46,043 nucleotides of DNA from Chloracidobacterium sp. CP2_5A. GTDB lineage: Bacteria > Acidobacteriota > Blastocatellia > Chloracidobacteriales > Chloracidobacteriaceae. The DNA lies in assembly GCA_002254845.1 (NCBI GenBank), contig NKPT01000026.1:1-46043 (forward strand), read 5' to 3'. Shown here one piece after another: positions 12,709 to 46,043 of this stretch. The notes under the pieces were generated by a model. It searched no databases. It had not been told where the DNA came from and saw only the letters and a list, made by a program, of their open reading frames with translations. The translations under genes were made by a program, and so were the position numbers. Within the stretch, counting starts at the first letter, position 1. Each line of letters starts with the position of its first letter.

Positions 12709-14679
12709 CTACTTCGCGTCGTCGCCTTGGCTTTCGTCCAACCCAAAGACTTTCCCCACCAGCGCCTGCAAGCGCCTGCCGGTGGCGACGCGCAGCCCGC
12801 TGGTTCGGCGCGGCGTCGCGGGCTGCTTCATCTTGATGGATTGCCGGCGACGCTCAAGCTCGCTGTGTCCGGGGGCGAGCGCCAATCCCCGGTCGAGGCA
12901 TTCGATGGCGCGCGACTCCAGCCCAAACTTGATATACAAGTCCGCCAACTCCGCGAGCAGCTCCGTCACTTCGTCGGGGTCGCGGCACAGGTCAATAGCG
13001 GCCAGGAAAGCTTTTTCAGCCTCCTTGTTGCGTCCGGGGAGGCGCAACAGCACGCGCGCCATCAGCGCCTGATAGTCAGCGTTGTTGGGTCGCTGCTCCA
13101 CCGCCCGGCGAATGGCTTGGTAGGCCCGCTCAATGTCGCCAGTCCCCAGGTACTCAACCGTCTTCATATACAGCTCTGAAGCCGGAATGGACGGCGTCTC
13201 CGGGGGCGCGGCGGCGGGCGCTTTGGGATAGGCGCCCGTCGGCATTCGCGGCGCTTGCGGGCTAGACGCCGCGGCGGCGTCCAGTCGCGGATGAGCGCCC
13301 GTCGGCGGGCGCGGCGGCCCCCCGCTCGGCGGAGCGGGGGGGCTGAGCGGCGGCGGGGCTGGCGCCGGCCGCAACCCGGCATCCGTCGCCGGCGCGGGAC
13401 GCTTCAACGTGGGCGGCGTCGGAGAGCTCCCTTTTGAAAGCGGCTGGGGGGGCAACTTCGGCGGCATCGGCGGCGACTTAGCGGCTGGCGGACTGGGCGA
13501 CTCGCCGGACGACGGGCGCGCCGGCGGCGCCGGCGGCGAACTCGATGGCGTCAAGCGAACGGCCTGGTAAGCTCCGGTTGGGAAACGGTTTCCGCAGGGC
13601 GTCGCGCGCGACGCGCGCAGGGCCAGGGTCGCGTCATACTTGCGCCGCTTTTCCTCGTCGCTCAGCGTGTCGTAGGCCTGCTGGATGGCAATAAAGACCC
13701 GCTCCAGCTTGGCTTTTACCTGGAAATCAAACGTCGCCAACTGCGAATGGCGGTCGGGGTGAAATTTCTTGGCTAACTCCCGGTAGGCTTTCTTAAGCTC
13801 TTCAAGCGTGAAGCGGCGGTTGATGCCAAGCACTTGATAATGCGTGCCGCCCGATTCCATCACGCGAATCTTTTCCTCCAGCTCGAAGCACAGCTCGGCG
13901 GCCCGCGCGGGGTCTATTTCGGCGGGCGTCAGGCGCGCCGAAGCGGACGCCTTCGAGCCTGTCTCGATAACCGGCAGCGACGCGCCGTCCGCAAACTTGA
14001 CGATGCCGGACATCGTGAAAGCGCAGATTGCCCGCAGCACGCGGTCTTCCGGCAGCGGCACAGCCAGGCAGGCATCCTTGACCGACAGCGGCGCGTCGAG
14101 CCGCGAGAGCACAAACGCCTCTTCCGGCGTGAGCGTCAGCCCCGGCAGGCTGACCTCGGCGGCGGAAACCGGCTGCAGGACGCGCTGCGCAGAGCCAAGC
14201 CACCGCTCAATGAGGCCAATGTCGGAAAAGTTGCGAATGCCATCGAAAATGAGCGCAATCGGCGATAATGCTTGTTGGAAGCCGTTGACCTTGACCCGCT
14301 GCACCTGGAAGCGATACTCGCCTGCCGTCCAGTGGAAGAGCGATTGCACCAGGTAGGCGATATGCCCGGCGAGCATCGCCTGCAAGTCAGCCGCCGCGAG
14401 GTAGCCCAGGTCAACGAGGCAGGACCCAAGATGCTTGCCCTTGCGGGTTTCGGCGACGGCCTGCGCGAGCTGCTCCGGCGAAATGCAGCCCATCGCGCAC
14501 AGGCGCTCGCCGAATCGCTCGGCGACGACTTCGCTTGCCGCATAAATAACCGAGCCATCTTCAAAATACACGTGATACGCCGCATTCGGCTGCGCGAGCG
14601 TCAGCGTTCCGCTCAGGCGCTGCCAGTAGCAAGCGCCAAGCAACTGTGGGACACAAGTGCTTTCGAGTCGCTGCGCCAT
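12709..14679 (-). CDS. DUF4388-J-domain-TPR protein, paralog 1
   Basis: The 656-residue protein has three parts. Residues about 10-170 are a DUF4388 (PATAN-like) module: YFEDGSVIYAASE, FGERLCAMGCISPEQL, GSCLVDLGYLAAADLQ and FHWTAGEYRF. Residues about 277-345 form a J domain (YQVLGINRRFTLEELKKAYR) with an intact HPD at 307-309, so it should stimulate an Hsp70 ATPase. A long Pro/Ser/Ala linker (about 355-495) follows, then a TPR-like C-terminus (about 500-640) with RAYQAIRRAVEQRPNNADYQ. No signal peptide is seen, so it is probably cytosolic. A second protein of the same architecture is encoded at 22026-23618. The role is unknown: a J-protein adaptor bringing DnaK to a signalling complex is inference. 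Confidence 0.85.
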   Translation of the reverse strand: MAQRLESTCVPQLLGACYWQRLSGTLTLAQPNAAYHVYFEDGSVIYAASEVVAERFGERLCAMGCISPEQLAQAVAETRKGKHLGSCLVDLGYLAAADLQAMLAGHIAYLVQSLFHWTAGEYRFQVQRVKVNGFQQALSPIALIFDGIRNFSDIGLIERWLGSAQRVLQPVSAAEVSLPGLTLTPEEAFVLSRLDAPLSVKDACLAVPLPEDRVLRAICAFTMSGIVKFADGASLPVIETGSKASASARLTPAEIDPARAAELCFELEEKIRVMESGGTHYQVLGINRRFTLEELKKAYRELAKKFHPDRHSQLATFDFQVKAKLERVFIAIQQAYDTLSDEEKRRKYDATLALRASRATPCGNRFPTGAYQAVRLTPSSSPPAPPARPSSGESPSPPAAKSPPMPPKLPPQPLSKGSSPTPPTLKRPAPATDAGLRPAPAPPPLSPPAPPSGGPPRPPTGAHPRLDAAAASSPQAPRMPTGAYPKAPAAAPPETPSIPASELYMKTVEYLGTGDIERAYQAIRRAVEQRPNNADYQALMARVLLRLPGRNKEAEKAFLAAIDLCRDPDEVTELLAELADLYIKFGLESRAIECLDRGLALAPGHSELERRRQSIKMKQPATPRRTSGLRVATGRRLQALVGKVFGLDESQGDDAK

Positions 14680-20971: not shown

Positions 20972-21386
20972 ATGGCTAAAACGCTCCAGCGCAACTTGCT
21001 GTGGCTGGGTTGGATGACGATTGGCTTGGCGTTGACCGCCGGCGCGCAGCAAAGCAGCGTCGTGGATTCGTTGTGACCGACGACGCCGAGCGGCAGCCCA
21101 TCCGGGGCGCGACCGTCACCCTGACGCCGAAAGCCAAGGCGCCCGGCGGCGACTACGCGCTGACCGTCGCCGCCCCCGGCTATGCGACGCTTACCGACGA
21201 ACGCTAGCTCATTGAGGACGGCGCTTTCATCGCGCAGCCTGTCGCGCTGACGCCCGCTTCTTTAGCCAAACCGACCGCACAACCGAGCGGTATCAGCTTC
21301 AGTTTTCGACGGCGCGGGCGGCCTTCAACGCCGGCGGCAATCGGTATCGCGGCTGGACTGCCGGCGCTCTACGGGGCTGGACCTAG
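20972..21386 (+). pseudogene. Decayed secreted carboxypeptidase-regulatory-like (Oar/TonB-plug type) protein
   Basis: A good Shine-Dalgarno (AAAGGAAGG) precedes ATG 20972 and a signal peptide (LLWLGWMTIGLALTAGAQQ). The frame stops at TGA 21074. In another frame from 21061 the text continues as GFVVTDDAERQPIRGATVTL, then GGDYALTVAAPGYATL, which is a carboxypeptidase-regulatory-like beta domain, broken by TAG 21205. The same frame resumes with IEDGAFIAQPVALTPA. The third frame gives RYQLQFSTARAAFNAGGNRYRG up to TAG 21384. At least two frameshifts and one stop separate pieces that belong together. The family usually forms the N-terminal domain of large outer-membrane or secreted proteins. The 3' end overlaps the sigma-factor gene on the other strand by 18 bases. 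Confidence 0.7.
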
Positions 21387-21941
21387 GAAACCGGCGAGGC
21401 GGCGCTTCAGCTCCAGTTTCGCCCGAAATAAGCGAGACTTGACCGTGCCGACCGCGACGCTTGTAATGTCGGCAATTTCCTCGCAACTTAGGCCGTCATA
21501 CTCCTTCATGATGAGCGCGTCACGGAAATCGGGCGGCAGCGCGGACAGCGCTTCCCGCACCAGACGGGCGCGCTCCTGCGCCTCAAAAGCGACATCCGGG
21601 CGCTCAGCGGCCACCGGCTCGCGCGGCGGCGCTTTCTCGCTGGCGGGCGTCGCTGACGGCGTCGCCATGACGCGGCGCTCGCTCCGTCGGGCGTCGCTCG
21701 TCAAACGATTGAAGGCAATGCGGTAGAGGTACGTCTTGACTGACGCCTCGCCGCGCCAGCTCGCGGCATGTTCCACCAGAGCGACAAACACATCCTGGCA
21801 AATTTCCTCCGCGCGCGCCGGCGATGACAGCCGTCGCGCCAGAAAGCGGTGGATGGCGGCGCGGTGGCGCTGATAGAGCGAGGCAAAAGCTTGCTCGTCG
21901 CCCCGCTGGAACGCGCGCAAGAGATCTTCATCTGTAGTCAT
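21369..21941 (-). CDS. ECF-family RNA polymerase sigma factor
   Basis: The 190-residue protein has the two-domain ECF layout. Region 2 is EQAFASLYQRHRAAIHRFL, then RAEEICQDVFVALVEH and SVKTYLYRIAFNRL (about residues 17-80). A charged Pro/Ala linker of about 45 residues follows. Region 4 is VREALSALPPDFRDALIMKEYDGLSCEEIADI with the helix-turn-helix VAVGTVKSRLFRAKLELKR (about 160-180). It redirects RNA polymerase to stress or surface-function promoters. No anti-sigma factor gene is adjacent, which is unusual for ECF factors, so control may be in trans or transcriptional. It overlaps the end of the decayed gene on the plus strand. Confidence 0.93.
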   Translation of the reverse strand: MTTDEDLLRAFQRGDEQAFASLYQRHRAAIHRFLARRLSSPARAEEICQDVFVALVEHAASWRGEASVKTYLYRIAFNRLTSDARRSERRVMATPSATPASEKAPPREPVAAERPDVAFEAQERARLVREALSALPPDFRDALIMKEYDGLSCEEIADITSVAVGTVKSRLFRAKLELKRRLAGFLGPAP

Positions 21942-22025: not shown

Positions 22026-23618
22026 TCATTTTTTGAATAGCTTGTCGAAGAAGCCGCCGCCCTTCGATCCCTTGATGGCGTCCAGCCCCTTGCGGGCGGC
22101 CTTTGAGTCGGGGTCTAGGCGCAGCGCCTCGCTGAACATTTTCTCAGCCTGAATGTTCATCCCGGCCCGGGCGTAAAGCTGCCCCAACGCCACTAGCGGC
22201 GCAGTGTTGAACTGGTCCAGCTCGGCGGCTTTCTTGAGGGCGTTTTCGGCGTCGCGCTGCATTTTCGGATGCGCGGCGAGGGTCGTGCCCAACAGAAGGT
22301 GATACCGAGCCACTTCCGGATTGAGCGACACCGCCTCGCGCAGCAACGTCACCGCGCCGACAAAGTCTCGGTTGGCGATCTTGGCGCGGGCGTCCTGAAA
22401 AGCTTTTTCCGCGCGGGCCTCGCGCTGGGCAGTTGTCTCGCCAGGCGCGGCGGGCGGCGCGGCGGGCGGGAGCGGCGCGCTGCCGCGCGGCGTCGGCGTG
22501 ACTGCGCTCAGCGGCATTGGAGCAAGCACGTCCGGCTTTTGGCCGCCATCCCGGATGGACTCATACGCCTCGGTCAGGCGCGCGAAAATGGCATCCACCT
22601 GGCGCCGCGTCTCCAGCGTCGCGTTCAAGTGGCGATCCGGGTGGAAGTCCTTGGCGAGCCGATAGTAGGCGTCGCGAATCTCGTCTCGCGTGGCGTGAGG
22701 CGAAACGCCTAAAACTTCATGCGGGTCATTGGTAGCGTCGAGTCGCGCCTGCATAGCCAACAGCATGTTCACGGCCTTGAGCGAGCCAGTTCGCTTGGCG
22801 GCGGCGTCAGCCACCTTGGGCGGCACGACTGGCGGCGCGGTGACGGCCTGCTCGACTATCTCGGCTGGAATTTCCATCTGCCCGGTTTCCCGGTTGATGA
22901 CCGGGACCGAGTGACGCTCCAGAATGCCGGCCGAAATGAGTCCATACAAAGCTTGAAGCGTCGCGTTGGGGGGGGCGCTGACGAGCATCATTGCCTGCAA
23001 GATGTTCATCGGGATGTTGATGCCGGCCACAAGCTGGCGCTCGATTGGCTTGAGCGAAAGCGATTGCGCCCGAAGGAGCGGGTTGCTCGACGGGCCAATG
23101 AGGCGATTCAAGTCGCCCATGCCGCGCTGGATGATGCTGAAATCTCGGATGCGGCGCGCGCCCTCCAGAACGATGTTGGCGGTTGACAGCTCAAGCCGCA
23201 AGTCATCAGAGACCGGCTTTTCCTGGTTGACGAAGCGGTACTCTCCGCTCGTCCACTCAAATAGCGAGTAGATGATGCCTAGGATTTGAAACGTCACGGC
23301 GTTAGCCAAGTCGCGCTCGGAAACAATCCCCTGTTCGACCAGGACGCGGCCGAACCGCTTGCCGCGCCCCATAGCCCCTGATGCGCGCAGGAAATCCGCT
23401 TCCGACAGCAGCCCATTCCGCATCATGCTTTCGCCGATGCGGTCGGCGGGATCATTGCTTCGCGCGAAGACAATTGCCCCCAGTTCAAAGCAAATGGACT
23501 TGCTAATCGCTTGGTGGCTCACGATGAGCTCGCCGCTCAGGCGGCGCGTGTAAACTCGCCGGATGACATCTGGCAACGCATCTTGAATGAGGTCGCCCTG
23601 TAAAAGCGGACTCGTCAC
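22026..23618 (-). CDS. DUF4388-J-domain-TPR protein, paralog 2
   Basis: The 530-residue protein starts at GTG 23618, set by a clear AAGGAG six bases upstream. Residues about 5-165 are a DUF4388 module: GAIVFARSNDPADRIGESMM, GRGKRFGRVLVEQGIVSERDL and FEWTSGEYRFV. The J domain (about 296-365) has HPD at 326-328 in LAKDFHPDRH. After a short Pro-rich linker come TPR-like helices (about 400-510) such as FVGAVTLLREAVSLNPEVARYHLLLG and IQAEKMFSEALRLDPDSKAA. The layout matches paralog 1 at 12709-14679, with a shorter linker. A run of eight Gs in the coding region (22968-22975) is a potential slippage site. The function is unknown; the J domain should engage DnaK. Confidence 0.87.
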   Translation of the reverse strand: MTSPLLQGDLIQDALPDVIRRVYTRRLSGELIVSHQAISKSICFELGAIVFARSNDPADRIGESMMRNGLLSEADFLRASGAMGRGKRFGRVLVEQGIVSERDLANAVTFQILGIIYSLFEWTSGEYRFVNQEKPVSDDLRLELSTANIVLEGARRIRDFSIIQRGMGDLNRLIGPSSNPLLRAQSLSLKPIERQLVAGINIPMNILQAMMLVSAPPNATLQALYGLISAGILERHSVPVINRETGQMEIPAEIVEQAVTAPPVVPPKVADAAAKRTGSLKAVNMLLAMQARLDATNDPHEVLGVSPHATRDEIRDAYYRLAKDFHPDRHLNATLETRRQVDAIFARLTEAYESIRDGGQKPDVLAPMPLSAVTPTPRGSAPLPPAAPPAAPGETTAQREARAEKAFQDARAKIANRDFVGAVTLLREAVSLNPEVARYHLLLGTTLAAHPKMQRDAENALKKAAELDQFNTAPLVALGQLYARAGMNIQAEKMFSEALRLDPDSKAARKGLDAIKGSKGGGFFDKLFKK

Positions 23619-23698: not shown

Positions 23699-24751
23699 TT
23701 AGTCGGTATCAGCGGACTCAGCGTCCTTGCCTTTGAGAATCGGGTCGGACAGCCGCGCCCGCTCGCCTTGGCGGTCAGCGCCGCGCAAAACGCCGCTGTC
23801 ATCCATTAGAAATGAGCGGCGGCCGGTTTCGCGGTAACGCTCTGGCAGGGCATGGATTTGAAACGTCGGCGGAACAGCCTGGTTATTGACAACCATCTCA
23901 ATGCGATAGCCCCGATACTGCCCATCCGATAGACCCGCGATTTCGCCCGCCCGCCGCAGATCAGCCAGCGTTCCGAAGCGATTTTGCCCGGCGCCCAGCG
24001 CATAGCGCGCCTGAGCCGCCTGTAGCTGATCAAGCAGCGGAAGCACAGCGGCTTCATTCGCGGCAATCCGAACTTCAAGCAGCTGGTCCAGGTCAAAGAC
24101 TTCATCGGCTTGCCCGCCAAACGTAGCGACGTAAAGCGCGGTAATCCGCCATACCTTGAGCTTCCGGTCACGAGTCAGCACCACATTGATGACGGTTGGG
24201 CTGGCGTCCTCGGCATTGAGCGATGCGCGAAGTTCAACTGAAGCGAGATTTTCCTCGGTCACATCCCGGAAAGCGATATTGCCGACGATTCGCGTTCCAG
24301 AGCGGAGCAGCATCTCGCGCGCTCCGGTTTCGGTGGTAATGGACTCGACGCGGACGCCGCGCTCGGCCAGCCGGCTTAGCGGGTGATCGCCCAGTAGCGC
24401 CCGCCGGATATCATTGTAAGCGGCATTATCATTCGTGGCCAGCGCGGAAAGCGTCGCTTGAGCGCGCTCCGTGAAGAACGCCCGGATGGCCGGATCGTCG
24501 CCGCGAAAGAATGCCTCGACGCAGGCCGCTACGATATCCACCGGGCGCAAGTCGCGCGAGCGCTGCGTCGGCGCGGAAGCGCCGGTCGCCCGGGCTCTCG
24601 TCGCCCGTCCAAAAGCCGTCTCCGTCGGGAGACAGAGAGCGCTCCCTGCCAGGGACAGCGTCCACAGCGCCCAAGCTAGGCGAGCGGCTCGTAAGGCGAA
24701 GACGCGCGCGGGCATTTGCATGCGATTCAAAGAGTGCATAGGCGTTATCAT
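23699..24751 (-). CDS. Exported protein with pilin-like C-terminal region
   Basis: Up to 350 residues. ATG 24751 is used, but ATG 24721 or 24715 would also give the signal peptide (ARLAWALWTLSLAGSALC). The middle part has beta/alpha segments (TEENLASVELRASLNAEDASPTVINV). The C-terminal third (about residues 235-335) reads EAAVLPLLDQLQAAQARYALG, FGTLADLRRAGEIAGL, QYRGYRIEMVV and ETGRRSFLMDDSGVLRG. That is the pattern of pseudopilin/type II secretion-like tails common in Acidobacteriota secreted proteins, without the type IV prepilin N-terminus. It is probably periplasmic. It lies upstream of the DUF4388-J paralog 2 gene on the same strand; a functional link is only suggested by order. Confidence 0.75.
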   Translation of the reverse strand: MITPMHSLNRMQMPARVFALRAARLAWALWTLSLAGSALCLPTETAFGRATRARATGASAPTQRSRDLRPVDIVAACVEAFFRGDDPAIRAFFTERAQATLSALATNDNAAYNDIRRALLGDHPLSRLAERGVRVESITTETGAREMLLRSGTRIVGNIAFRDVTEENLASVELRASLNAEDASPTVINVVLTRDRKLKVWRITALYVATFGGQADEVFDLDQLLEVRIAANEAAVLPLLDQLQAAQARYALGAGQNRFGTLADLRRAGEIAGLSDGQYRGYRIEMVVNNQAVPPTFQIHALPERYRETGRRSFLMDDSGVLRGADRQGERARLSDPILKGKDAESADTD

Positions 24752-25979: not shown

Positions 25980-27143
25980 ATGGGCAAGCGGCGACCGGCT
26001 CGGGGACTTGATGCACGTAGCCATGAGCTACTGCTGGGACTGGTGCGTCTGCACATCGCCACCGGCGAGCCGATTAGCTCGCGGACGCTTTCGAAGCAGT
26101 CGGGGCAAACGCTGAGCCCGGCCTCGATCCGCAACATCATGGCCGAGCTCGAAGAGCAGGGCTATGTCGCGCAGCCCCACGCCTCCGCGGGGCGAGTGCC
26201 GACGGATCGCGGCTACCGCTACTATGTGGATACCCTTGTCGCCGACTTCGAGGCGCGGCCTTCCCGCGCCGATGAAGAGGTTATCCAGCGCAGCCTGTTC
26301 TCGGACCCAACCGTGACCGGAGAGGACGTTCTTGCCCGGGCCTCGCACGTCCTCTCGAATCTCTCCTCCCACGTCGGGATTGTCTTGTCGCCGCCGCTTT
26401 CCCGCGACATCCTGCAGCATATCGAGTTTATTCGGCTCGAGGCGCGGCGCGTGCTGGTCGTGACCGTCTCGCGAACCGGGCTGGTGCGCAACTTCGTCGT
26501 TCGAATGGATGAAGACATTCCGCCCGGCGAGCTTGATCGGACGGCGAACTACATCATTGAAAACTTTGCCGGCCGCAGCCTGACGGACATTCGCGTCGAG
26601 CTGCTCAGGCGCATGTCGGAGGAGCAGCGCCTTTATGACCGACTGCTCAAGAACGCGCTGGTGCTCTGCAATCAGGATCTCAGCGCGAGCGTTCCTGAAA
26701 CCGACGTCTATGTGGATGGCGCGGCCAACATGCTCGACACGCCGGAATTCGCCGATACCGCCCGCATGCGCGCCATCTTTCGCATGTTTGAAGAAAAAGG
26801 CCGACTGGTGAAAATCCTCAACGCTTGCCTGTCGCAAAGCGAAACCGCTCGCGGGGTCGTGGTGCAGATTGGTATGGAACATCACGTGCCAGGGCTGCGG
26901 GATTGCGCCATTGTCACGGCACCTTACCATTACCGTCATGATTCGGTCGGAAGCCTCACGGTAGTAGGACCGACGCGGATGAAATACGGGCGCGTTATGC
27001 GGTTAGTTGGCTACATGGCCAGGATGTTCAACCAGCTCTTGGACGACACGACCAAGTCGCCTTTTCCGCCGGCGCTCGTGGGACAGCCCGGCGGCCCGAT
27101 CCAAGTCGTTAACTTGCAGGGCGGCTCCCTGCTTGGCAGCTGA
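25980..27143 (+). CDS. hrcA: Heat-inducible transcription repressor HrcA
   Basis: HrcA represses the groE and dnaK operons by binding CIRCE elements and is itself kept active by GroEL. The 387-residue protein begins with a winged helix: LDARSHELLLGLVRLHIATGEPISSRTL and LSPASIRNIMAELEEQGYVAQPHASAGRVPTDRGYRYYVDTL (about residues 10-85). The GAF-like dimer domain follows, and it ends with SLTVVGPTRMKYGRVMRLVGYMARMFNQLL, a family signature. It is the first gene of hrcA-grpE-dnaK-dnaJ, the order seen in many phyla. Length is near the usual 340-350 plus a short tail. Confidence 0.96.
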   Translation: MGKRRPARGLDARSHELLLGLVRLHIATGEPISSRTLSKQSGQTLSPASIRNIMAELEEQGYVAQPHASAGRVPTDRGYRYYVDTLVADFEARPSRADEEVIQRSLFSDPTVTGEDVLARASHVLSNLSSHVGIVLSPPLSRDILQHIEFIRLEARRVLVVTVSRTGLVRNFVVRMDEDIPPGELDRTANYIIENFAGRSLTDIRVELLRRMSEEQRLYDRLLKNALVLCNQDLSASVPETDVYVDGAANMLDTPEFADTARMRAIFRMFEEKGRLVKILNACLSQSETARGVVVQIGMEHHVPGLRDCAIVTAPYHYRHDSVGSLTVVGPTRMKYGRVMRLVGYMARMFNQLLDDTTKSPFPPALVGQPGGPIQVVNLQGGSLLGS

Positions 27144-27303
27144 CCTCCAAGCGAGGCGCGGAACGCGGCACAAGATGGAGCGCTAAGGCGGCTGATGATC
27201 CGACTCGCGTTGTGTTTGGCTGGCGGCGCGATGGCGACGAATGGGCATCGCGCTTTTGTGACAAGCCGCCTTGGCAGGGAACGCTCAAAGGAGGACCGCA
27301 ACG

Positions 27304-28218
27304 GTGAATACGCCTGTCGGCAACGTTTTGCCAAAGTTTGACATCGCGCCCCCGCCGACCGAGATTGAGCTGCCTGACGCGGGAGGCATCTTGACCGACA
27401 GCGCCGAGGAAACGCCTTCCACAGCGCGGGGTCCGGCGGTCAGCGCCGCGCCATCGGCTCCAGCCGAAGCGGAGCCGCCGGCCACCGCGCCCCCGCCCTG
27501 CGAGCCTGCCCAGGAGCTGAGGGGCGGCGCCAAAGCCGAGTCGGCCCTGACCGACACTCCAGCCGCGGCGACGGCGGAAGGGGGCAGCCCGCCTGTCGCG
27601 GGAGCGCCTGCGGAAGCGTCGACGAGCGGGCGCCAGGCTTTCTCCGAAGACGAGACGATCAAGCTCCTCATGGACTTGGCAAGCTTGCAGGAAGACCTTG
27701 AGCGCGCCCGCGAGCAAACCAATTCGGCGCGGCGGCATGTCGAAATCGTGCAGGAGCAGCTTGCGAAAACGACGGTCGAGAAGGCGACGCTCCAGGAGCA
27801 GCTTCAGCGCCTTATGGCGGAGTTTGACAACTATCGCAAGCGCGTCGAGCGGGAAAAAGCCGAAGCCATTGAGCGCGGCAAGCAGACGGTCATCCTGAAC
27901 CTGCTAGAAACGCTCGACAACCTTGATCGGGCGCTGGCGACCGGACGCGCCGAAGGCGGCAGCCTGACGGACTTTCTAGCAGGCGTTGAACTCATCCAGC
28001 GTCAGCTTGCGGACGGACTTTCCAGCATTGGGGTCAAGCCGATTCCGGCGGTCGGCGAAGCCTTTGACCCGATGGTTCACGAAGCGATTGCCACGGACGA
28101 GACAGACGAGTACAAACCCAATACAGTACTCGCGGAACTCAAGCGCGGCTATAAGCTTGGCGACCGGCTCCTGCGCCCGTCCATGGTGCGCGTGGCTGTC
28201 CGCCCGGCATCCACTTGA
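27304..28218 (+). CDS. grpE: Nucleotide exchange factor GrpE
   Basis: GrpE releases ADP from DnaK. GTG 27304 is chosen because AAAGGAGG lies nine bases upstream; a TTG 11 codons earlier is less likely. Of 304 residues, the first 115 or so are a low-complexity Ala/Pro/Glu extension, much longer than the usual acidic tail. The canonical dimerising coiled coil (LQEQLQRLMAEFDNYRKRVEREKAE) and the beta-wing (GEAFDPMVHEAIATDETDEYKPNTVLAELKRGYKLGDRLLRPSMVRVA) follow. The gene lies between hrcA and dnaK. The long extension may interact with membranes or partners; that is inference. Confidence 0.95.
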   Translation: MNTPVGNVLPKFDIAPPPTEIELPDAGGILTDSAEETPSTARGPAVSAAPSAPAEAEPPATAPPPCEPAQELRGGAKAESALTDTPAAATAEGGSPPVAGAPAEASTSGRQAFSEDETIKLLMDLASLQEDLERAREQTNSARRHVEIVQEQLAKTTVEKATLQEQLQRLMAEFDNYRKRVEREKAEAIERGKQTVILNLLETLDNLDRALATGRAEGGSLTDFLAGVELIQRQLADGLSSIGVKPIPAVGEAFDPMVHEAIATDETDEYKPNTVLAELKRGYKLGDRLLRPSMVRVAVRPAST

Positions 28219-28291
28219 TCGCTCGCGCGCGGCCTGATGGGCTTCGAGCGAGCTAACTGACACGGGCGCGCTTAGAGCTATTTTCCTGAAC

Positions 28292-28311
28292 GCATGTCTA
28301 GCGAGACATGC
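28292..28311. promoter_or_regulatory. Perfect 8-base inverted repeat in the dnaK leader
   Basis: GCATGTCT-AGCG-AGACATGC lies 14 bases before the dnaK ATG at 28326. It may be an operator of 20 bases or an RNA hairpin with a four-base loop near the ribosome site. No Shine-Dalgarno is visible beyond it. It is not a CIRCE element. Confidence 0.5.
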
Positions 28312-28325
28312 CATGGACACCTGTC

Positions 28326-30188
28326 ATGGGCAAAGTTATCGGCATAGACCTCGGCACGACTAACTGCTGCGTCGCCGTCATGGAAGGCGGCACAACGCAG
28401 ATCATTCCCAACAAAGAGGGCGGGCGCACCACGCCATCGGTTGTCGGTTTCACCGACAAGGGCGAGCGTCTGGTTGGGCAGATTGCGCGCCGGCAGGCCA
28501 TTACCAACGCCGCTAACACCATCTATGCCGTCAAGCGGCTCATCGGTCGCAAGTTCAATTCGCCGGAGGTGCAGCGGGCGCGCGAGACCTGCCCGTATGA
28601 GATTTGCGAATCCTCCAACGGCGACGCTTGGGTGCGGGCGCAGGGCCGCGCCTACAGCCCGCCGGAGGTTTCGGCCATCATTTTGCAGCGACTGAAGGCT
28701 TCCGCTGAAGATTTCCTTGGCGAGCCGGTCGAGGAAGCGATCATCACGGTTCCGGCCTACTTTGACGACTTTCAGCGTCAGGCCACCAAGGACGCGGGCA
28801 AGATCGCCGGTCTCAACGTCCAGCGCATCATCAACGAGCCGACGGCGGCGGCGCTGGCCTACGGATCGGGGCGGCGGGAATCCGAGCGCATTGCGGTTTA
28901 TGACTTAGGCGGGGGCACGTTCGACGTATCCGTTCTGGAGATGAATGACGGCGTCTTTGAAGTGCTCTCGACCTGCGGCGATTCGTTCCTCGGCGGCGAA
29001 GACTTCGACCAGCGCATCATCGATTGGCTGATTCAGGAGTTTATGCGCGAGTCAGGCATTGACCTGCGCGCCGACCGGCTGGCGCTCCAGCGACTGAAGG
29101 AAGCGGCCGAGCGCGCCAAGTGCGAGCTGTCCTCGACGATGGAAGCCAACATCAACCTGCCCTTCATCGCCGCCGACCCGGCGACCGGTCCCAAGCACCT
29201 CAACCTCAACCTCGCCCGCGCCAAGTTCGAGGAGCTGGTCAAGGACCTTGTCGAGCGCACCGTCGAGCCGTGCCAAAAAGCTCTCTGGGACGCGCGGCTC
29301 AAGCCCGAAGACATTGACCAAGTGCTGCTGGTCGGCGGGCAAACGCGCTCGCCGATTATTCACGAGTGCGTCAGGAAGATTTTCGGGCGCGAGCCGAACG
29401 CGAGCATCAATCCCGACGAAGTTGTGGCCATCGGGGCCTCCATTCAGGGCGGCGTTTTCACCGGACAGGTCAAGGATCTCGTCCTGCTTGACGTCATTCC
29501 GCTCTCGCTGGGCATTGAGGTTCGCGGCGGGCTTTTCCAAAAAATCGTCGAGCGCAATGCCACGATTCCAGTGCGCAAGGCGCTGACGTTCACGACTGTC
29601 GTGGACAACCAGGCCAGCGTCGAGGTTCATGTGTTGCAGGGCGAGCGCGAGATTGCCAAGGGCAACCGCTCGCTCGGCAAATTCGAGTTGATTGGCATTC
29701 CTCAGGCCCCCCGCGGTGTGCCGCAAATCGAGGTCTCCTTCGAGATTGACGCCGACGGCATTGTGCAGGTGTCGGCGCGCGACAAGTCCACCGGGCTCGA
29801 GCAAAACATGCGCGTCACGCCGTCTTCCGGGCTGTCGCCGGGCGAGATTGCCAACCTCATCGCTGAAGCTCAGCGCAACGCCGAAAGCGATCGCCAGATG
29901 AAAGAGCTGTTGCTGATGCAAAGCCGACTGGATGGGCTGCTGCAGAACACCCAGCGCTCCTTTGGCGAATTCGGCTGGATGCTGGCCGCCGAGGAGCAAG
30001 AGCTGGTGCGCGAGACGCTGACCGGGGCTAAGGAAGTGTTGAGCATTCAGGACCCGGCGGTGGTCAAGCAATGGCTTGACGCGCTCGAAAACGCCGCTCA
30101 AATCATCACCAATGCCATGTTCAATGCGCCGGCGGGGGATCAGCCTCCGCCATCCGAAACCGGCGGCGTGAAGATGTTGACGGAATGA
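28326..30188 (+). CDS. dnaK: Chaperone DnaK (Hsp70)
   Basis: DnaK is the central ATP-driven chaperone. I place the start at ATG 28326 ([15 protein letters not shown]), not at the in-frame ATG 28308 that lies inside the inverted repeat. The 620-residue protein has the nucleotide-binding domain with phosphate 1 ([15 protein letters not shown]), [36 protein letters not shown] and the [15 protein letters not shown] segments. The substrate-binding domain and C-terminal lid follow, with no EEVD-like tail. Cys in TTNCC where most bacteria have Ser or Thr is a small variation. It follows grpE by 107 bases and precedes dnaJ by 122. Confidence 0.97.
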
Positions 30189-30310
30189 CCGTCGTCGGCA
30201 ATGGTAAGTCAAGCTTGAGGCGCGGATTGCCGATCGCCTGGCGGCGGGGGGCGTAAGCCTTCGGCCGCGCGGCAGGCGGCGACTTGGTCAGGCTTCGGAA
30301 GGATGACGAC

Positions 30311-31459
30311 ATGGCAGCAACCAAGCGGGATTACTACGAGGTGTTGGGCGTTGCCCGCAACGCGACCGAGACCGACATCAAAAAAGCTTACCGTCGCCTC
30401 GCCATGAAGTATCACCCGGACAAAAATCCGGGTGACGCCGCCGCGGAAGAGAAGTTTAAGGAAGCGGCGGAAGCGTATGCCGTTTTGTCGGATGCCGAGC
30501 AGCGCGCCCGATACGATCGCTTTGGTCACGCCGGCGTCGGCGCCGCGGCGGCCGGCGGGTTTGGCGGCGGCTTTGCCGGATTCCAGAATTTTGAAGATAT
30601 TCTGGGCGACATCTTTGGCTTTGGCTTTGGCGGGGCTGGCGGCGGACGCCGCAACAGCCAGGTCCAGCGCGGGGCCGACTTGCGCTATGACCTGGAACTC
30701 ACCCTGGAGGAAGCCGCTAAAGGCGTGACCACGCAGATTCGCGTGCCGCGGCTAGAGACCTGCGACGACTGTGGCGGAAGCGGCGCCGCGCCGGGAAGCG
30801 CGCCGGAGATCTGCGCGGCTTGCGGAGGGGCGGGGCAAGTTCGCTATCAGCAGGGTTTCTTCAGCGTGACGCGCACCTGTCCCCAGTGCCGCGGCGTCGG
30901 ACGCATCATCAAAGACATCTGCCACGCCTGCCGTGGCGAGGGCCGCGTCCGGCGCGAGAAGAAAATCGAGCTCAAGGTTCCGGCCGGCATTGACGATGGC
31001 ATGCGCCTGCGCGTTGCGGGCGAAGGCGAGTCCGGCCTTGGCGGCGGCCCGCCGGGCGACTTGCAAGTGGTTATTCACATTCGCGAGCACGAGATTTTCG
31101 AGCGACAGGACAACAATCTGCTGTGCCAAGTCTCGGTTGACTTTGCCGAAGCCGCGCTTGGCGCTGAAATTGAAGTGCCGCTCCTGGAAGGCCAAGCCAG
31201 CTTGAAAATTCCTGAAGGCACGCAAACCGGCGCGACATTTCGCCTGCGCGGCAAGGGGATCACTTCGCTTTCCGGCGAAACGGGCGACTTGTTTGTGATC
31301 ATTAACGTCGTGACGCCGACGAGCCTCACGCCGGAACAGCGTCGGCTGCTGGAGGAATTCGCGGCGCTCAGCCCCAAGGGCAACCGCCGCAAGGGCGCGC
31401 GCAAAAGCGAGGACAAAAGCTTTTTTGACCGCGTGAAAGACACGATCTTCGGCAGCTAA
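30311..31459 (+). CDS. dnaJ: Chaperone DnaJ (Hsp40)
   Basis: DnaJ delivers clients to DnaK and stimulates ATP hydrolysis. The start is ATG 30311, with GGAAGGATG upstream; a further upstream in-frame start adds only nine residues. The 382-residue protein has a J domain ([23 protein letters not shown], with HPD in [11 protein letters not shown]), a Gly/Phe-rich linker, four CxxCxGxG-type zinc motifs ([32 protein letters not shown]) and the C-terminal client-binding domain. It is a full type I DnaJ and ends the heat-shock operon, converging on the response regulator gene. Confidence 0.97.
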
Positions 31460-41723: not shown

Positions 41724-44700
41724 ATGAACGAGAGTATTTCATCGATGCCAACGGGGCGCTCGCCGCGTCAGTCAAGTTGGCGGCGCTTGCTGCCGCTGGC
41801 GGTGGCAGCGACAGTGTTCGCGGCTGGATTGGCGCTGACGTTTCGAGCGTCGACGACGCGAGCGGCTGGGCGGGCGGCATTGGTCGCCGGGAAGTTGACG
41901 CCGGGCGAGTTGCAGAAGCTTTCCATTCCGAGCGCGAGCCGAGTGAAGCTGCTGGTGGAGGCGGACGCGCCGGCGACGGAGAGCCTGCGCGGGTCAAAGC
42001 TGGTCAGCGAGTACGAGGGCTTTCGGGTGTTTGAAGTATCCGAGCGCGAGGCAGCGCGGCTGGCGAGCGAGCCGGGCGTGACGCAGCGCAACGATTTCAA
42101 CTCAATTTACTTGAATGCGGTGGAAATTAACACGACTTCGGCGGCAGCCCAGGCCCTGCGGCAGGAACAGTCTCTGATGGACGGAGTTGGGATGCGGCTG
42201 GTGCAGTTTGCCGGCCCAATCCAGCCGGCGTGGCTGCGGATGCTGGAAGCGACGGGCGTGCAAGTGGTGACGTACGTGCCGAGCAACGCCTACCTGGTCT
42301 ATGGCAACGCGAAGAATTTCGCGGCGCTGAACGACTTGGCGCAGCGGACGGAAGCGCTGCAATGGGACGGGCCGTACTACGGGCTGTTCAAGATTCACCC
42401 GATGGCGCTGCCGGGGAGCAAGCAGTTTGTTGACACGAACGGGGAGTATCAAGTCCAGCTTTTGAACGACCAGCAGGGCAATCGAGGCACGTTTGGGCTG
42501 TTGCAGGCCATTGGGGCGCGGCAGATTGGCGAAACGGACGCTTGGGGTCCATACGTGAACCTGACCGTGAAGTTTTCGCCGGACCACCTGATGGAAGTGG
42601 CGGAGCGGCCGGACGTGATTTCGATTCACCCGAATATCGAGACCAAGAAGCTCGATGAACGGCAGAATATGATTGTCGCGGGGAATCTCTCAGGGAACAA
42701 TCCGAATTCGGGGAACTACCTGAACTTGCTGGCAACCTGGGGCTTTACTCAAGCGCAGTTCAATTCCTCGGGCTTCATCGTGGACGTGACCGACGACGGG
42801 GCAGATCGGAACCCGACCGGGGCGGATCCTGGGACAGTGCCAGTGAACGGAAGCGCGGGCCCTGTGCCGACGCGGCACTTCAGCTTGCGCGAGGGCGGCA
42901 ATTTTAGCGGCGTGTCGCGCTTTATATACAAGGGCGTGTGGGGAACGCTCGGAACGGACCAGGGGCTTGGGCTTGACGGCCACGGGCAGCTCAACATGAG
43001 CATCGTAGGCGGGTTTGTGCCGGACTCATTCGATCCGTCGGGAACGCGAATCCACCGCGATCCGCAGGGCTTCCGGTACGGCTTGGGCGTGGCGCCGTTC
43101 GTGCGGCTGGCGAATTCGGTCATCTTCGACCCGAACTTCACGAGCCCGAACTTCAGCAACATGCTGCGCCAGAACTACATAGACGGGGCCCGGATTACAA
43201 GCAACAGTTGGGGCGCGGCGACGTCCGGGGGATATAACATCAATTCGCAGACTTACGACGCTCGGACGCGGGACGCGGACACCGTGGCGACAGGGAATCA
43301 ACAGCTGGCGATGGTGTTTGCAGCCGGGAACAGCGGGCCTGGCAGCCAAACGGTTGGAGCGCCCGGAACAGCGAAGAATGTCATCACGGTCGGCGCGGCG
43401 GAGAACGTGCATTCGCATTCGAGCGCGAACGGCGGGAACAACGTGTCGGGCAACGACGGGTGCAATATCCCAGACACCGGGGCGGACAGCGCAAACGACA
43501 TGATTTCGTTTTCGAGCCGCGGCCCGTGCGCGGACGGGCGGCGGAAGCCGGACATCGTAGCGCCAGGGACGCACGTGACAGGCATGGCCTACGTGGCCGC
43601 AGGCTCAGACCCAACGACGCCGCCGAACAACCCAGGGACGGGGGATCCGGGCTTCCGCGCAAGCGGGGTGTGCGCCCTCCCTGGCGGTGGCACGGCGGGC
43701 AATCCGAACAACTACTTCCCCTTCACGACGGGCCAGCGGTGGTACACGACATCGTCAGGGACCAGCCACTCATGCCCGGCGGTGGCCGGCGGAGCGGCGC
43801 TGGCGTATCAGCAGTTCATCAACAATCCCTCGTATATTGGGCTGCACCGGACGCCTTCCGGGAGCGCGCCGCCCAGCCCGGCGATGCTCAAAGCCTACCT
43901 AATGAACACAGCGCGATATATGACGGGCGCCGGGGCAAATGACACGCTGTGGTCAAATGTCCAGGGTATGGGAGAGATGAACCTTGGCGCGGCCTTCAAC
44001 GGCGTGCAGCGGATCATCCGAGACCAAGTCCCGGCGGACCGGTTTACGGCGACGGGACAGGAGCGGTTATTCGTGGGGACGGTCGCGAACCCGGCGCAGC
44101 CGTTTCGGGTGACGCTAGCCTGGACGGAGCCGCCTGGGAACACCATGGGGAACGCCTACGTCAACGACCTGGACCTGGAAGTGACGGTAGGCGGGAACAC
44201 CTACCGCGGAAACGTCTTTACCGGGGCAAACTCGACGACGGGGGGCGCGGCGGATTTTCGCAACAACGTGGAAAGCGTGTTCTTGCCGGCCGGAGTAAGC
44301 GGAAGCTTCCTTGTGCGGGTGCGGGCCACGAACATCGCGGGACAAGCCGACCCGACGGTGTCTGGAAACAACCAGGACTTCGCGCTGGTGGTGCAAAATG
44401 GGCAGCCGGCGACGGTGCCAGTCATTAGCGGATTAAGCGCGACAATTACGGCGGAGAGCTGCGCGCCGCCGAACGGCGTGCCAGACACATCCGAGACGGT
44501 GACAGTGAACGTGACGCTGCGCAACGACGGAACGGGGCCAACAGCTGGAAACCTGATTGCGACGCTGACGCCGACGGGCGGAGTGGGCACGATTGGAGGA
44601 ACGAACCCGCAGAATTATGGGACGCTCGCAAGTGGCGCAAGCGCGACACGGCCATTCACATTCACAGTGAGCGGGACGTGCGGAAGCGCGTTAACGATGA

Positions 44701-46043
44701 CGCTAAACCTGTCAGACAACAACGGAAGCCTTGGGGCTGTGACCTTCTCGTTCCAGATTGGCGTGCCAAACAATGTGCTGACGCAGAACTTTGACACAGT
44801 GACGCCGCCGGCGCTGCCGAGTGGGTGGACGGCAACCAACGCGGCCGGGCCCCTGCCGTTGTGGGAAACATCCAATCTGACGCCGGACACGTCGCCAAAC
44901 TGCGCGTTTGTGGACAACCCGAGTGTGGTAAGCGACAAGCGACTGGATACGCCGCCCATCAACCTGACGACAAGCGCAGCGAAGCTGAGATTCCGCAACT
45001 TCTACAACCTTGAGGCTACATATGACGGCGGGGTGCTGGAGATCAGCATCAACGGCGGACCGTTCCAGGACATCCTGTCGGCCGGCGGAAGTTTCGCGAC
45101 TGGCGGGTACAATGGGACAATCTCTACTGGATTCTCGAACCCGATTGGCGGGCGACAAGCCTGGACTGGAAACTCGGGCGGGTACATCACGACGGAAGTG
45201 AACTTGCCTGGGAGCGGCAGTCGGACGGTCGTCCTGCGCTTCCGAATGGGCAGCGATAGCCTTTTTGGGGCGCCGGGCTGGCGGATAGACACGCTGACGG
45301 TACAGGACGGCTTCAACTGCTGCGGCGCGGTGCTGACGCCGAACGTGACCTTCACGAGCCAAACGACGAGCGAGCTGCCGGGAACGCTCAACAGCGATGG
45401 GGACGGCTTCTTTGAGCCGTGCGAGACCCTGCAGTCGAACATCACTGTGACCAACACCGGCGGGGCGACGGCGACAACGACGACGGTGACCATCACGACG
45501 ACGACGCCGAACGTGACGATTGTGAGCGGCACGACGCCAAACCTGGGTCCGATTGCGCCGGGCGGCAGCGCCACGGGCAACGTGACGTTCAAGCTTGCGC
45601 CGAGCTTCACGCCTGGCACGCCGGTGAACATCAATGTGTCGGTGGCGTTCGGCCCAGGAGGGCCGAGCCCGAGCATGTCGAGCTACCTGGTAACGACAGG
45701 CTGCCCGTTGTTGCCGGGGAGCACGTTTACAGGATCGAATACCGCGCCGATCACAATTCCAACTTTGGGAACGGCGACGCCATACCCCTCGACCATCTCA
45801 GTCAGCGGCATCTCCAGCCCTATCACGAAGGTGACGGTGACGATCAATAACTTCAACCATACCTGGCCAAGCGACGTCGGCGTGGCGCTGCGAGGTCCGG
45901 GCGGGCAGGTCTGCGTGCTGTTCAACAACGCCATCGGCGGGTCTGGCGGCGTGACCGGCCGGACTTACACATTTGACCAGACGGCGGCGACGGCGCTCCC
46001 GGCGACCGGCTTCCCGCCGAGCGGCACGTATCAGCCAAATAAC
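41724..46043 (+). CDS. Large secreted subtilisin-like (S8) serine protease, 3' end outside window
   Basis: The frame from ATG 41724, preceded by GAGGAA, is open to the end of the window: 1440 codons with no stop. A signal peptide (RRLLPLAVAATVFAAGLALTF) is followed by a long propeptide-like region (about 45-340). The S8 domain has the catalytic triad Asp357 (VDVTDDGAD), His420 (GLDGHGQLN) and Ser681 (SGTSHSCPAVAGG), with the oxyanion Asn in MVFAAGNSGPGS. After it come a jelly-roll segment, two CARDB/DUF11-like beta domains (near 900-1010 and 1205-1320), a choice-of-anchor-like region starting NFDTVTPPALPSGW (about 1023) and, near 1340, a proprotein-convertase-P-like domain (WPSDVGVALRGPGG). 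It is probably an extracellular enzyme; the rest of the C-terminus and any sorting signal lie beyond the window. Confidence 0.92.
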   Translation, partial: MNESISSMPTGRSPRQSSWRRLLPLAVAATVFAAGLALTFRASTTRAAGRAALVAGKLTPGELQKLSIPSASRVKLLVEADAPATESLRGSKLVSEYEGFRVFEVSEREAARLASEPGVTQRNDFNSIYLNAVEINTTSAAAQALRQEQSLMDGVGMRLVQFAGPIQPAWLRMLEATGVQVVTYVPSNAYLVYGNAKNFAALNDLAQRTEALQWDGPYYGLFKIHPMALPGSKQFVDTNGEYQVQLLNDQQGNRGTFGLLQAIGARQIGETDAWGPYVNLTVKFSPDHLMEVAERPDVISIHPNIETKKLDERQNMIVAGNLSGNNPNSGNYLNLLATWGFTQAQFNSSGFIVDVTDDGADRNPTGADPGTVPVNGSAGPVPTRHFSLREGGNFSGVSRFIYKGVWGTLGTDQGLGLDGHGQLNMSIVGGFVPDSFDPSGTRIHRDPQGFRYGLGVAPFVRLANSVIFDPNFTSPNFSNMLRQNYIDGARITSNSWGAATSGGYNINSQTYDARTRDADTVATGNQQLAMVFAAGNSGPGSQTVGAPGTAKNVITVGAAENVHSHSSANGGNNVSGNDGCNIPDTGADSANDMISFSSRGPCADGRRKPDIVAPGTHVTGMAYVAAGSDPTTPPNNPGTGDPGFRASGVCALPGGGTAGNPNNYFPFTTGQRWYTTSSGTSHSCPAVAGGAALAYQQFINNPSYIGLHRTPSGSAPPSPAMLKAYLMNTARYMTGAGANDTLWSNVQGMGEMNLGAAFNGVQRIIRDQVPADRFTATGQERLFVGTVANPAQPFRVTLAWTEPPGNTMGNAYVNDLDLEVTVGGNTYRGNVFTGANSTTGGAADFRNNVESVFLPAGVSGSFLVRVRATNIAGQADPTVSGNNQDFALVVQNGQPATVPVISGLSATITAESCAPPNGVPDTSETVTVNVTLRNDGTGPTAGNLIATLTPTGGVGTIGGTNPQNYGTLASGASATRPFTFTVSGTCGSALTMTLNLSDNNGSLGAVTFSFQIGVPNNVLTQNFDTVTPPALPSGWTATNAAGPLPLWETSNLTPDTSPNCAFVDNPSVVSDKRLDTPPINLTTSAAKLRFRNFYNLEATYDGGVLEISINGGPFQDILSAGGSFATGGYNGTISTGFSNPIGGRQAWTGNSGGYITTEVNLPGSGSRTVVLRFRMGSDSLFGAPGWRIDTLTVQDGFNCCGAVLTPNVTFTSQTTSELPGTLNSDGDGFFEPCETLQSNITVTNTGGATATTTTVTITTTTPNVTIVSGTTPNLGPIAPGGSATGNVTFKLAPSFTPGTPVNINVSVAFGPGGPSPSMSSYLVTTGCPLLPGSTFTGSNTAPITIPTLGTATPYPSTISVSGISSPITKVTVTINNFNHTWPSDVGVALRGPGGQVCVLFNNAIGGSGGVTGRTYTFDQTAATALPATGFPPSGTYQPNN

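Follow-up and report, generated by a model that had tools for sequence, protein, structure and literature searches.

The window, by which we mean the whole stretch of DNA analysed (46,043 nucleotides of Chloracidobacterium sp. CP2_5A, contig NKPT01000026.1), encodes two J-domain proteins, here called A and B, as well as the genes of a DnaK chaperone system (Table 1). A first-pass annotation made from the sequence had given both open reading frames, and we recovered them at exactly the same coordinates on the minus strand, a detail that it had left unstated. Protein A begins at a GTG codon, with AAGGAG a little way 5' of it. The annotation had also described one architecture common to the two proteins, in which DUF4388 is followed by a J domain with an intact HPD motif, a proline-rich linker and TPR-like helices, and this is borne out by Pfam, by the positions of the HPD and by the AlphaFold2 models. 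Profile searches placed all three domain types above cut-off in both proteins. DUF4388 (PF14332), the match on which the earlier description hinged, scored 54.2 bits in B and 71.1 bits in A, both well above the gathering cut-off of 25, and DnaJ scored 66.5 and 46.8 bits, respectively (cut-off 27.8); four TPR models exceeded their Pfam cut-offs in B and three in A.

The HPD lies at residues 307-309 of B and 326-328 of A and is flanked by predicted helices in both models. In the proline-rich linker, pLDDT was below 50 for most of residues 359-495 of B and for residues 359-390 of A, and a structure search with the models identified the C-terminus of each protein as a TPR superhelix (match to VIA: Z 19.5, rmsd 1.5, 120 residues aligned for A; Z 17.9, rmsd 2.2, 120 aligned for B). 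TPR chains filled the match lists of both models, with no MshEN among the matches listed. The models were built with 14 sequences and reached pTM values of 0.47 for A and 0.41 for B, at which the arrangement of the domains is not trustworthy. A and B are paralogs, with 27% identity over 376 aa (E 2e-43). The DnaJ model TIGR02349 matched the J domain only, at 62.5 bits in B and 34.3 bits in A, as against a cut-off of 377.2; neither protein is a canonical class A DnaJ.

Table 1. Features of the window and the third paralog of the source genome
Feature	Position	Strand	Layout, evidence or remarks
Protein B (P0002, 656 aa)	12709..14679	minus	DUF4388 with insert, residues 5-150; J domain 279-349; Pro-rich linker; TPR about 496-620 (Pfam, AlphaFold2 model, TPR structure matches)
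MshEN-like insert of B (residues 55-104)	14368..14517	minus	NF053729, 41.8 bits in protein scan, 46.9 in genome scan
ECF sigma factor	21369..21941	minus	Adjoins A in the window, three congeners, L067 and L068
Protein A (P0001, 530 aa)	22026..23618	minus	DUF4388 with insert, residues 7-158; J domain 298-357; short linker; TPR about 396-520 (Pfam, start region, AlphaFold2 model)
MshEN-like insert of A (residues 60-111)	23286..23441	minus	NF053729, 31.4 bits in protein scan, 34.2 in genome scan
Protein of no assigned family	23699..24751	minus	Directly upstream of A, same strand; in the window, three congeners, L067 and L068
hrcA	25980..27143	plus	TIGR00331, 282.6 bits
grpE	27271..28218	plus	NF010738, 141.8 bits
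dnaK	28308..30188	plus	One of two full-length HSP70 genes found in the genome
Canonical dnaJ	30284..31459	plus	TIGR02349, 437.4 bits
Paralog C (L002)	G000:C276:16211-17362		Open to contig end

The full DnaK system that the annotation had named in the window is real, with HrcA, GrpE, DnaK and DnaJ encoded at 25980-31459. Its statement that the J-protein pair lies beside this system holds for A in the window, in three congeners and in L067, an uncultured Chloracidobacterium sp. whose A relative is 92% identical; it does not hold for B, nor for A relatives in L068 (an uncultured Blastocatellia bacterium, 85% identity) and in the stretches read from two other genera. A is near hrcA, grpE, dnaK and dnaJ in the window, in the congeners G165 (L038) and G096 (L041) and in L067, and in the congener G123 (L066) it is beside hrcA with dnaJ about 7 kb on. 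Neither the L068 stretch nor the A stretches of the two other genera (L058-L061) showed any of the four genes; their closeness to A was observed within the genus alone. Transcription of A runs away from the hrcA-grpE-dnaK-dnaJ operon, and B and its paralogs C and D are located elsewhere: A and B are about 37 kb apart in G165 and G123 and more than 600 kb apart in G096. In the window and the three congeners, B is adjoined by ATP synthase genes.

A search of the whole window for a CIRCE-type operator, including the region before hrcA and allowing up to three mismatches, gave no match; this is uninformative as to control by HrcA. The second full-length DnaK of the genome (G000:C282:21098-23286) has a DnaJ close by and differs from the DnaK of the window at its C-terminal end. 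The protein upstream of A has a DUF2950 match below threshold (17.5 bits, cut-off 20.2), and a 1440-aa frame at 41724-46043 is open at the window end.

A and B had been regarded as a dedicated pair, and here the annotation has to be revised, as they belong to a set of four that occurs in three genera of the family. The draft source genome (95% complete) encodes a third paralog, C, so that three of its six J-domain proteins carry DUF4388; the fourth, D, was not found in this draft. Each of the three congener assemblies (two contigs each, 3.7 Mb) encodes all four, making up four of seven J-domain proteins. The C paralogs keep the HPD, and their C-terminal region differs and is without TPR-like signs, as judged from the alignment. 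In a tree of 37 proteins from 19 genomes and seven families, B, C and D each formed a clade with a bootstrap of 100, and A and a near-copy formed a weaker group (82/84). Since the B, C and D clades each contain all three genera read, the duplications seem to predate the divergence of these genera.

Matches to A at 1e-10 were present in 131 of 199 sampled genomes of the phylum, many over the DUF4388 part only. A contig scan across many phyla for two motifs of close relatives returned 11 loci, ten of them titled Acidobacteria, Blastocatellia or Chloracidobacterium; the other is titled Actinomycetota, and its scaffold name says Acidobacteria. Among 14 control genomes, DUF4388 matches occurred in three and NF053729 matches in five, and P0001 had no match among plasmids. 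All 37 aligned relatives matched Pfam DUF4388 and DnaJ, the latter count and that for the HPD being partly a matter of choice, as 13 of the proteins (those outside family f1) were selected for the HPD letters; the HPD is also present in all 24 aligned f1 proteins, which were selected by how they match A and not by the HPD. Of the TPR models, TPR_19 was the commonest, with matches in 29 of the 37.

A feature unmentioned in the annotation emerged by profile match. Each DUF4388 of A, B and C carries an insert of about 50 residues with homology to MshEN/GSPII, the module by which pilus ATPases bind c-di-GMP. The DUF4388 matches of the three J-proteins are accordingly long, at 146-152 aa vs 88-107 aa in the other 12 of the 15 above cut-off in the source genome. 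NF053729, the NCBIfam model for the MshE-type c-di-GMP motif (cut-off 38 bits), scored B above its cut-off and A below it in both the protein and the genome scans. At E <= 0.001, this model had four matches in the draft source genome, namely PilB (C291) and the three DUF4388-J proteins, and it matched 29 of the 37 aligned relatives, with no match at that level in the other eight. Among 12 proteins whose scores were seen singly, four exceeded the cut-off (P0002 41.8, L052 38.9, L014 40.1 and L029 45.2 bits), six fell below it (30.4-35.6 bits, P0001 included) and two had no match at the limit used. Compared with PDB sequences, a profile of the A and C relatives matched Thermus thermophilus PilF (6f8l) over the insert at E 1.2e-10 and Vibrio cholerae MshE (5htl) at 2e-4; the head of A alone matched the two more weakly (3e-4 and 0.002, respectively). 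Four helices were predicted at the insert in the AlphaFold2 models of both A and B, those of A at residues 61-67, 73-81, 89-95 and 101-119. These matches establish the homology of the insert in A and B to MshEN/GSPII, an assignment that covers homology and not function. What appears to be new here is this insert in each DUF4388 of the DUF4388-J proteins, and the main interest lies in a nested MshEN-like module whose matches in this draft genome were confined to PilB and the J-proteins. Our findings suggest that other DUF4388 domains with a long helical insert are worth checking for a relative of MshEN/GSPII.

Whether the insert could bind a nucleotide was approached through 14 key positions of MshE (PMC5013675), which were mapped onto the family with L, I, V, M, F, Y, W and A accepted at the hydrophobic ones. 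A keeps 12 of these positions, B 11 and C 13, and eight of the 37 relatives keep merely 6-9. The equivalents of R9, G11, R38, G40 and Q61 are kept in 32, 29, 25, 32 and 24 of 37 proteins, respectively. Q61, the second conserved glutamine, is present in A and replaced by His in B, where His also replaces the second Arg of the motif; A has Ser at the L29 position. The glutamine of the first motif (Q32 of MshE) is kept in none of the 37, and the two conserved glutamines by which an MshEN c-di-GMP receptor is recognised therefore do not occur together in any of them. The mean frequency of the majority residue is 0.61 at the 14 key positions vs 0.42 in the rest of the insert, part of this difference being plain fold conservation.

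The source genome has six GGDEF domains above cut-off, so the cell probably makes c-di-GMP, and Chloracidobacterium thermophilum PilB is reported as a c-di-GMP binder (PMC11656802). Known relatives of the insert point both ways. GSPII-A of PilF, the best PDB match, deviates at both glutamines and the second Arg and is reported not to bind c-di-GMP (PMC12002112), and GSPII-B of the same protein is reported to bind it at a nanomolar KD despite the replacement of both leading arginines (PMC11731258). Given a non-binding GSPII-A, a tightly binding GSPII-B and the partial retention of residues, sequence does not decide the matter. We consider it possible but rather unlikely that the insert of A or C can still bind c-di-GMP or a related dinucleotide, and less likely again that the insert of B can.

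With DUF4388 above cut-off and the HPD kept, a DnaK-recruiting role for A and B is reasonable, and the earlier reading that these proteins bring DnaK to specific complexes is partly supported; the adaptor role is still a matter of interpretation. Starting from what the sequence establishes, namely the order of the domains, an HPD that is intact, a family of paralogs and the homology of the insert, we think the odds somewhat favour A and B being DnaK co-chaperones with specialised targeting. The J domain would recruit DnaK and stimulate its ATPase, the TPR superhelix would hold a client or partner, and the DUF4388 head with its MshEN-like insert may set where or when the co-chaperone works, through docking to a partner complex or through a response to a nucleotide. 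With this insert, the head becomes a candidate for sensing or docking, which hints that a second messenger could steer a chaperone.

How much of this targeting depends on a ligand is where the explanations part. We give an even chance to the insert being a four-helix module with a structural or protein-docking role, comparable to GSPII-A of PilF, which does not bind, with A and B serving as DnaK adaptors that take no nucleotide input. The loss of the first-motif glutamine throughout the family and the eight relatives lacking an NF053729 match point this way, and the persistence of the R9, G11, R38, G40 and Q61 equivalents, together with the higher conservation at key positions, partly explained by the fold, argues the other way; such a module would be compatible with the targeting half of the explanation that we favour. 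A co-chaperone gated by c-di-GMP would be a special case of that explanation, in which the ligand switches the exposure of the J domain or of a partner surface and DnaK is recruited at a given c-di-GMP level. The homology of the insert, its partial residue retention and the GGDEF enzymes are consistent with gating, as are the two PilZ-DnaK chaperones of Myxococcus xanthus (PMC10313047) and the nanomolar binding by GSPII-B of PilF, by which the motif tolerates changes (PMC11731258). Against these stand the missing glutamines and the score of P0001 under the NF053729 cut-off, and we regard gating as a tentative possibility. Extended to the whole family, it would mean four second-messenger-gated J-proteins whose MshEN-like module senses c-di-GMP or a related dinucleotide through an altered first half-site and switches DnaK recruitment at particular complexes, which we judge unlikely. 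A further alternative is that these are general heat-shock co-chaperones that simply add to the DnaJ repertoire, with co-regulation as the reason for a place near dnaK. The position of A in the window, in three congeners and in L067, with hrcA-grpE-dnaK-dnaJ close by, would fit, but A is transcribed away from the operon, its paralogs are elsewhere, and neither L068 nor the stretches from the two other genera showed the operon genes near A, so that we find this improbable.

The DUF4388 domain is one that we take to be identical to PATAN, with a helical insertion that is presumably the one called the alpha-clip. Makarova et al. are said to have named the PATAN domain and its alpha-helical insertion in 2006. 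The PATAN response regulators PixE, PixG and LsiR have the same domain type with a helical insertion; unlike them, the proteins described here have a J domain and TPR instead of a receiver domain. In cyanobacteria, PATAN regulators bind PilB1, and the TPR-containing DnaJ3 acts with DnaK1 at the pilus motor (PMC12288463, PMC9239167), the contact between DnaK1 and PilB being reported as seen in Nostoc and not in Synechocystis (PMC9239167). The likeness to this system lies in a TPR-containing J-protein that works with DnaK, with PATAN regulators at the same motor (PMC12288463, PMC9239167). The difference is that head, J domain and TPR form one chain here, whereas the passages that describe DnaJ3 mention no DUF4388 or MshEN-like head.

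Because PATAN regulators and DnaK1/DnaJ3 both act at the motor in cyanobacteria, our first guess for the partner of A and B would be the type IV pilus motor, together with the output to which it is coupled, either surface or polysaccharide. A pilus-motor gene neighbourhood is without support among the T2SSE matches listed for 15 genomes: compared by eye, no T2SSE gene adjoins a DUF4388-J gene, and the nearest on the same contig as a DUF4388 match is about 20 kb away (G021:C94, J domain unconfirmed).

Fusion of chaperone machinery to a domain type known for binding c-di-GMP has a parallel in CsdK1 and CsdK2, the PilZ-DnaK proteins of M. xanthus, described as working in a heat-stress system that may involve raised c-di-GMP (PMC10313047). 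There, PilZ is on the Hsp70 itself (PMC10313047); here, the MshEN-like insert, a candidate ligand binder, is within DUF4388 on a J-protein. The insert resembles MshEN/GSPII of MshE, PilB and PilF in its homology over the 53-residue tandem motif and in its four predicted helices (PMC5013675, PMC11731258, PMC12002112) and differs in being nested inside DUF4388, in a spacer that in A and B is shorter by one residue, and in the first glutamine, missing from all 37. Many partner domains of MshEN are listed in PMC5013675, the main text of which does not name PATAN, DUF4388 or DnaJ. Where papers contain both "PATAN domain" and MshEN, the passages concerned connect them loosely and not as one fold, and a review with PATAN, DnaJ and TPR places them, in the passages concerned, in separate proteins (PMC12288463). 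Searches of the open-licence literature returned no paper joining DUF4388 with DnaJ, none joining J-domain, cyclic di-GMP and MshEN, and none joining alpha-clip with PATAN, which does not imply that the idea has never appeared in print. The J domains also resemble those of AtcJ-type short J-proteins, AtcJ being a J domain with a 21-residue extension (PMC6715715): all 37 relatives match the AtcJ-type model NF050028 at E <= 0.001, but the scores seen, 31-43 bits, are far below its cut-off of 150.

How bacteria bring a co-chaperone to the correct complex at the moment it is needed there is a largely open question. In the congeners, four of seven J-proteins have a signalling head with a module in common with the pilus motor, which makes control of DnaK recruitment by a dinucleotide or by motor docking directly testable. 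If such control operates, J-proteins would give c-di-GMP signalling a route into proteostasis, in addition to the PilZ-DnaK proteins known from Myxococcus, and if the gated reading is true, more than half of the J-proteins (four of seven in the congeners) would tie chaperone action to a signal of surface life.

Some relatives of A vary in their J domain or were set aside from the alignment. L016, L021 and L023 match A along nearly the whole length without an HPD or a DnaJ match at 1e-4, and they may have lost the J domain and kept head and tail; they were dropped for want of the HPD. The best matches of L022, L028, L031 and L033-L037 end before the J domain, and these were dropped as well. L002 is cut by a contig end, as is L077, which was set aside. 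In L013 (G051), an A relative of 706 aa, the HPD occurs twice, giving two J domains in one chain, and a 546-aa frame at G063:C124:69532-70158 likewise has two DnaJ matches.
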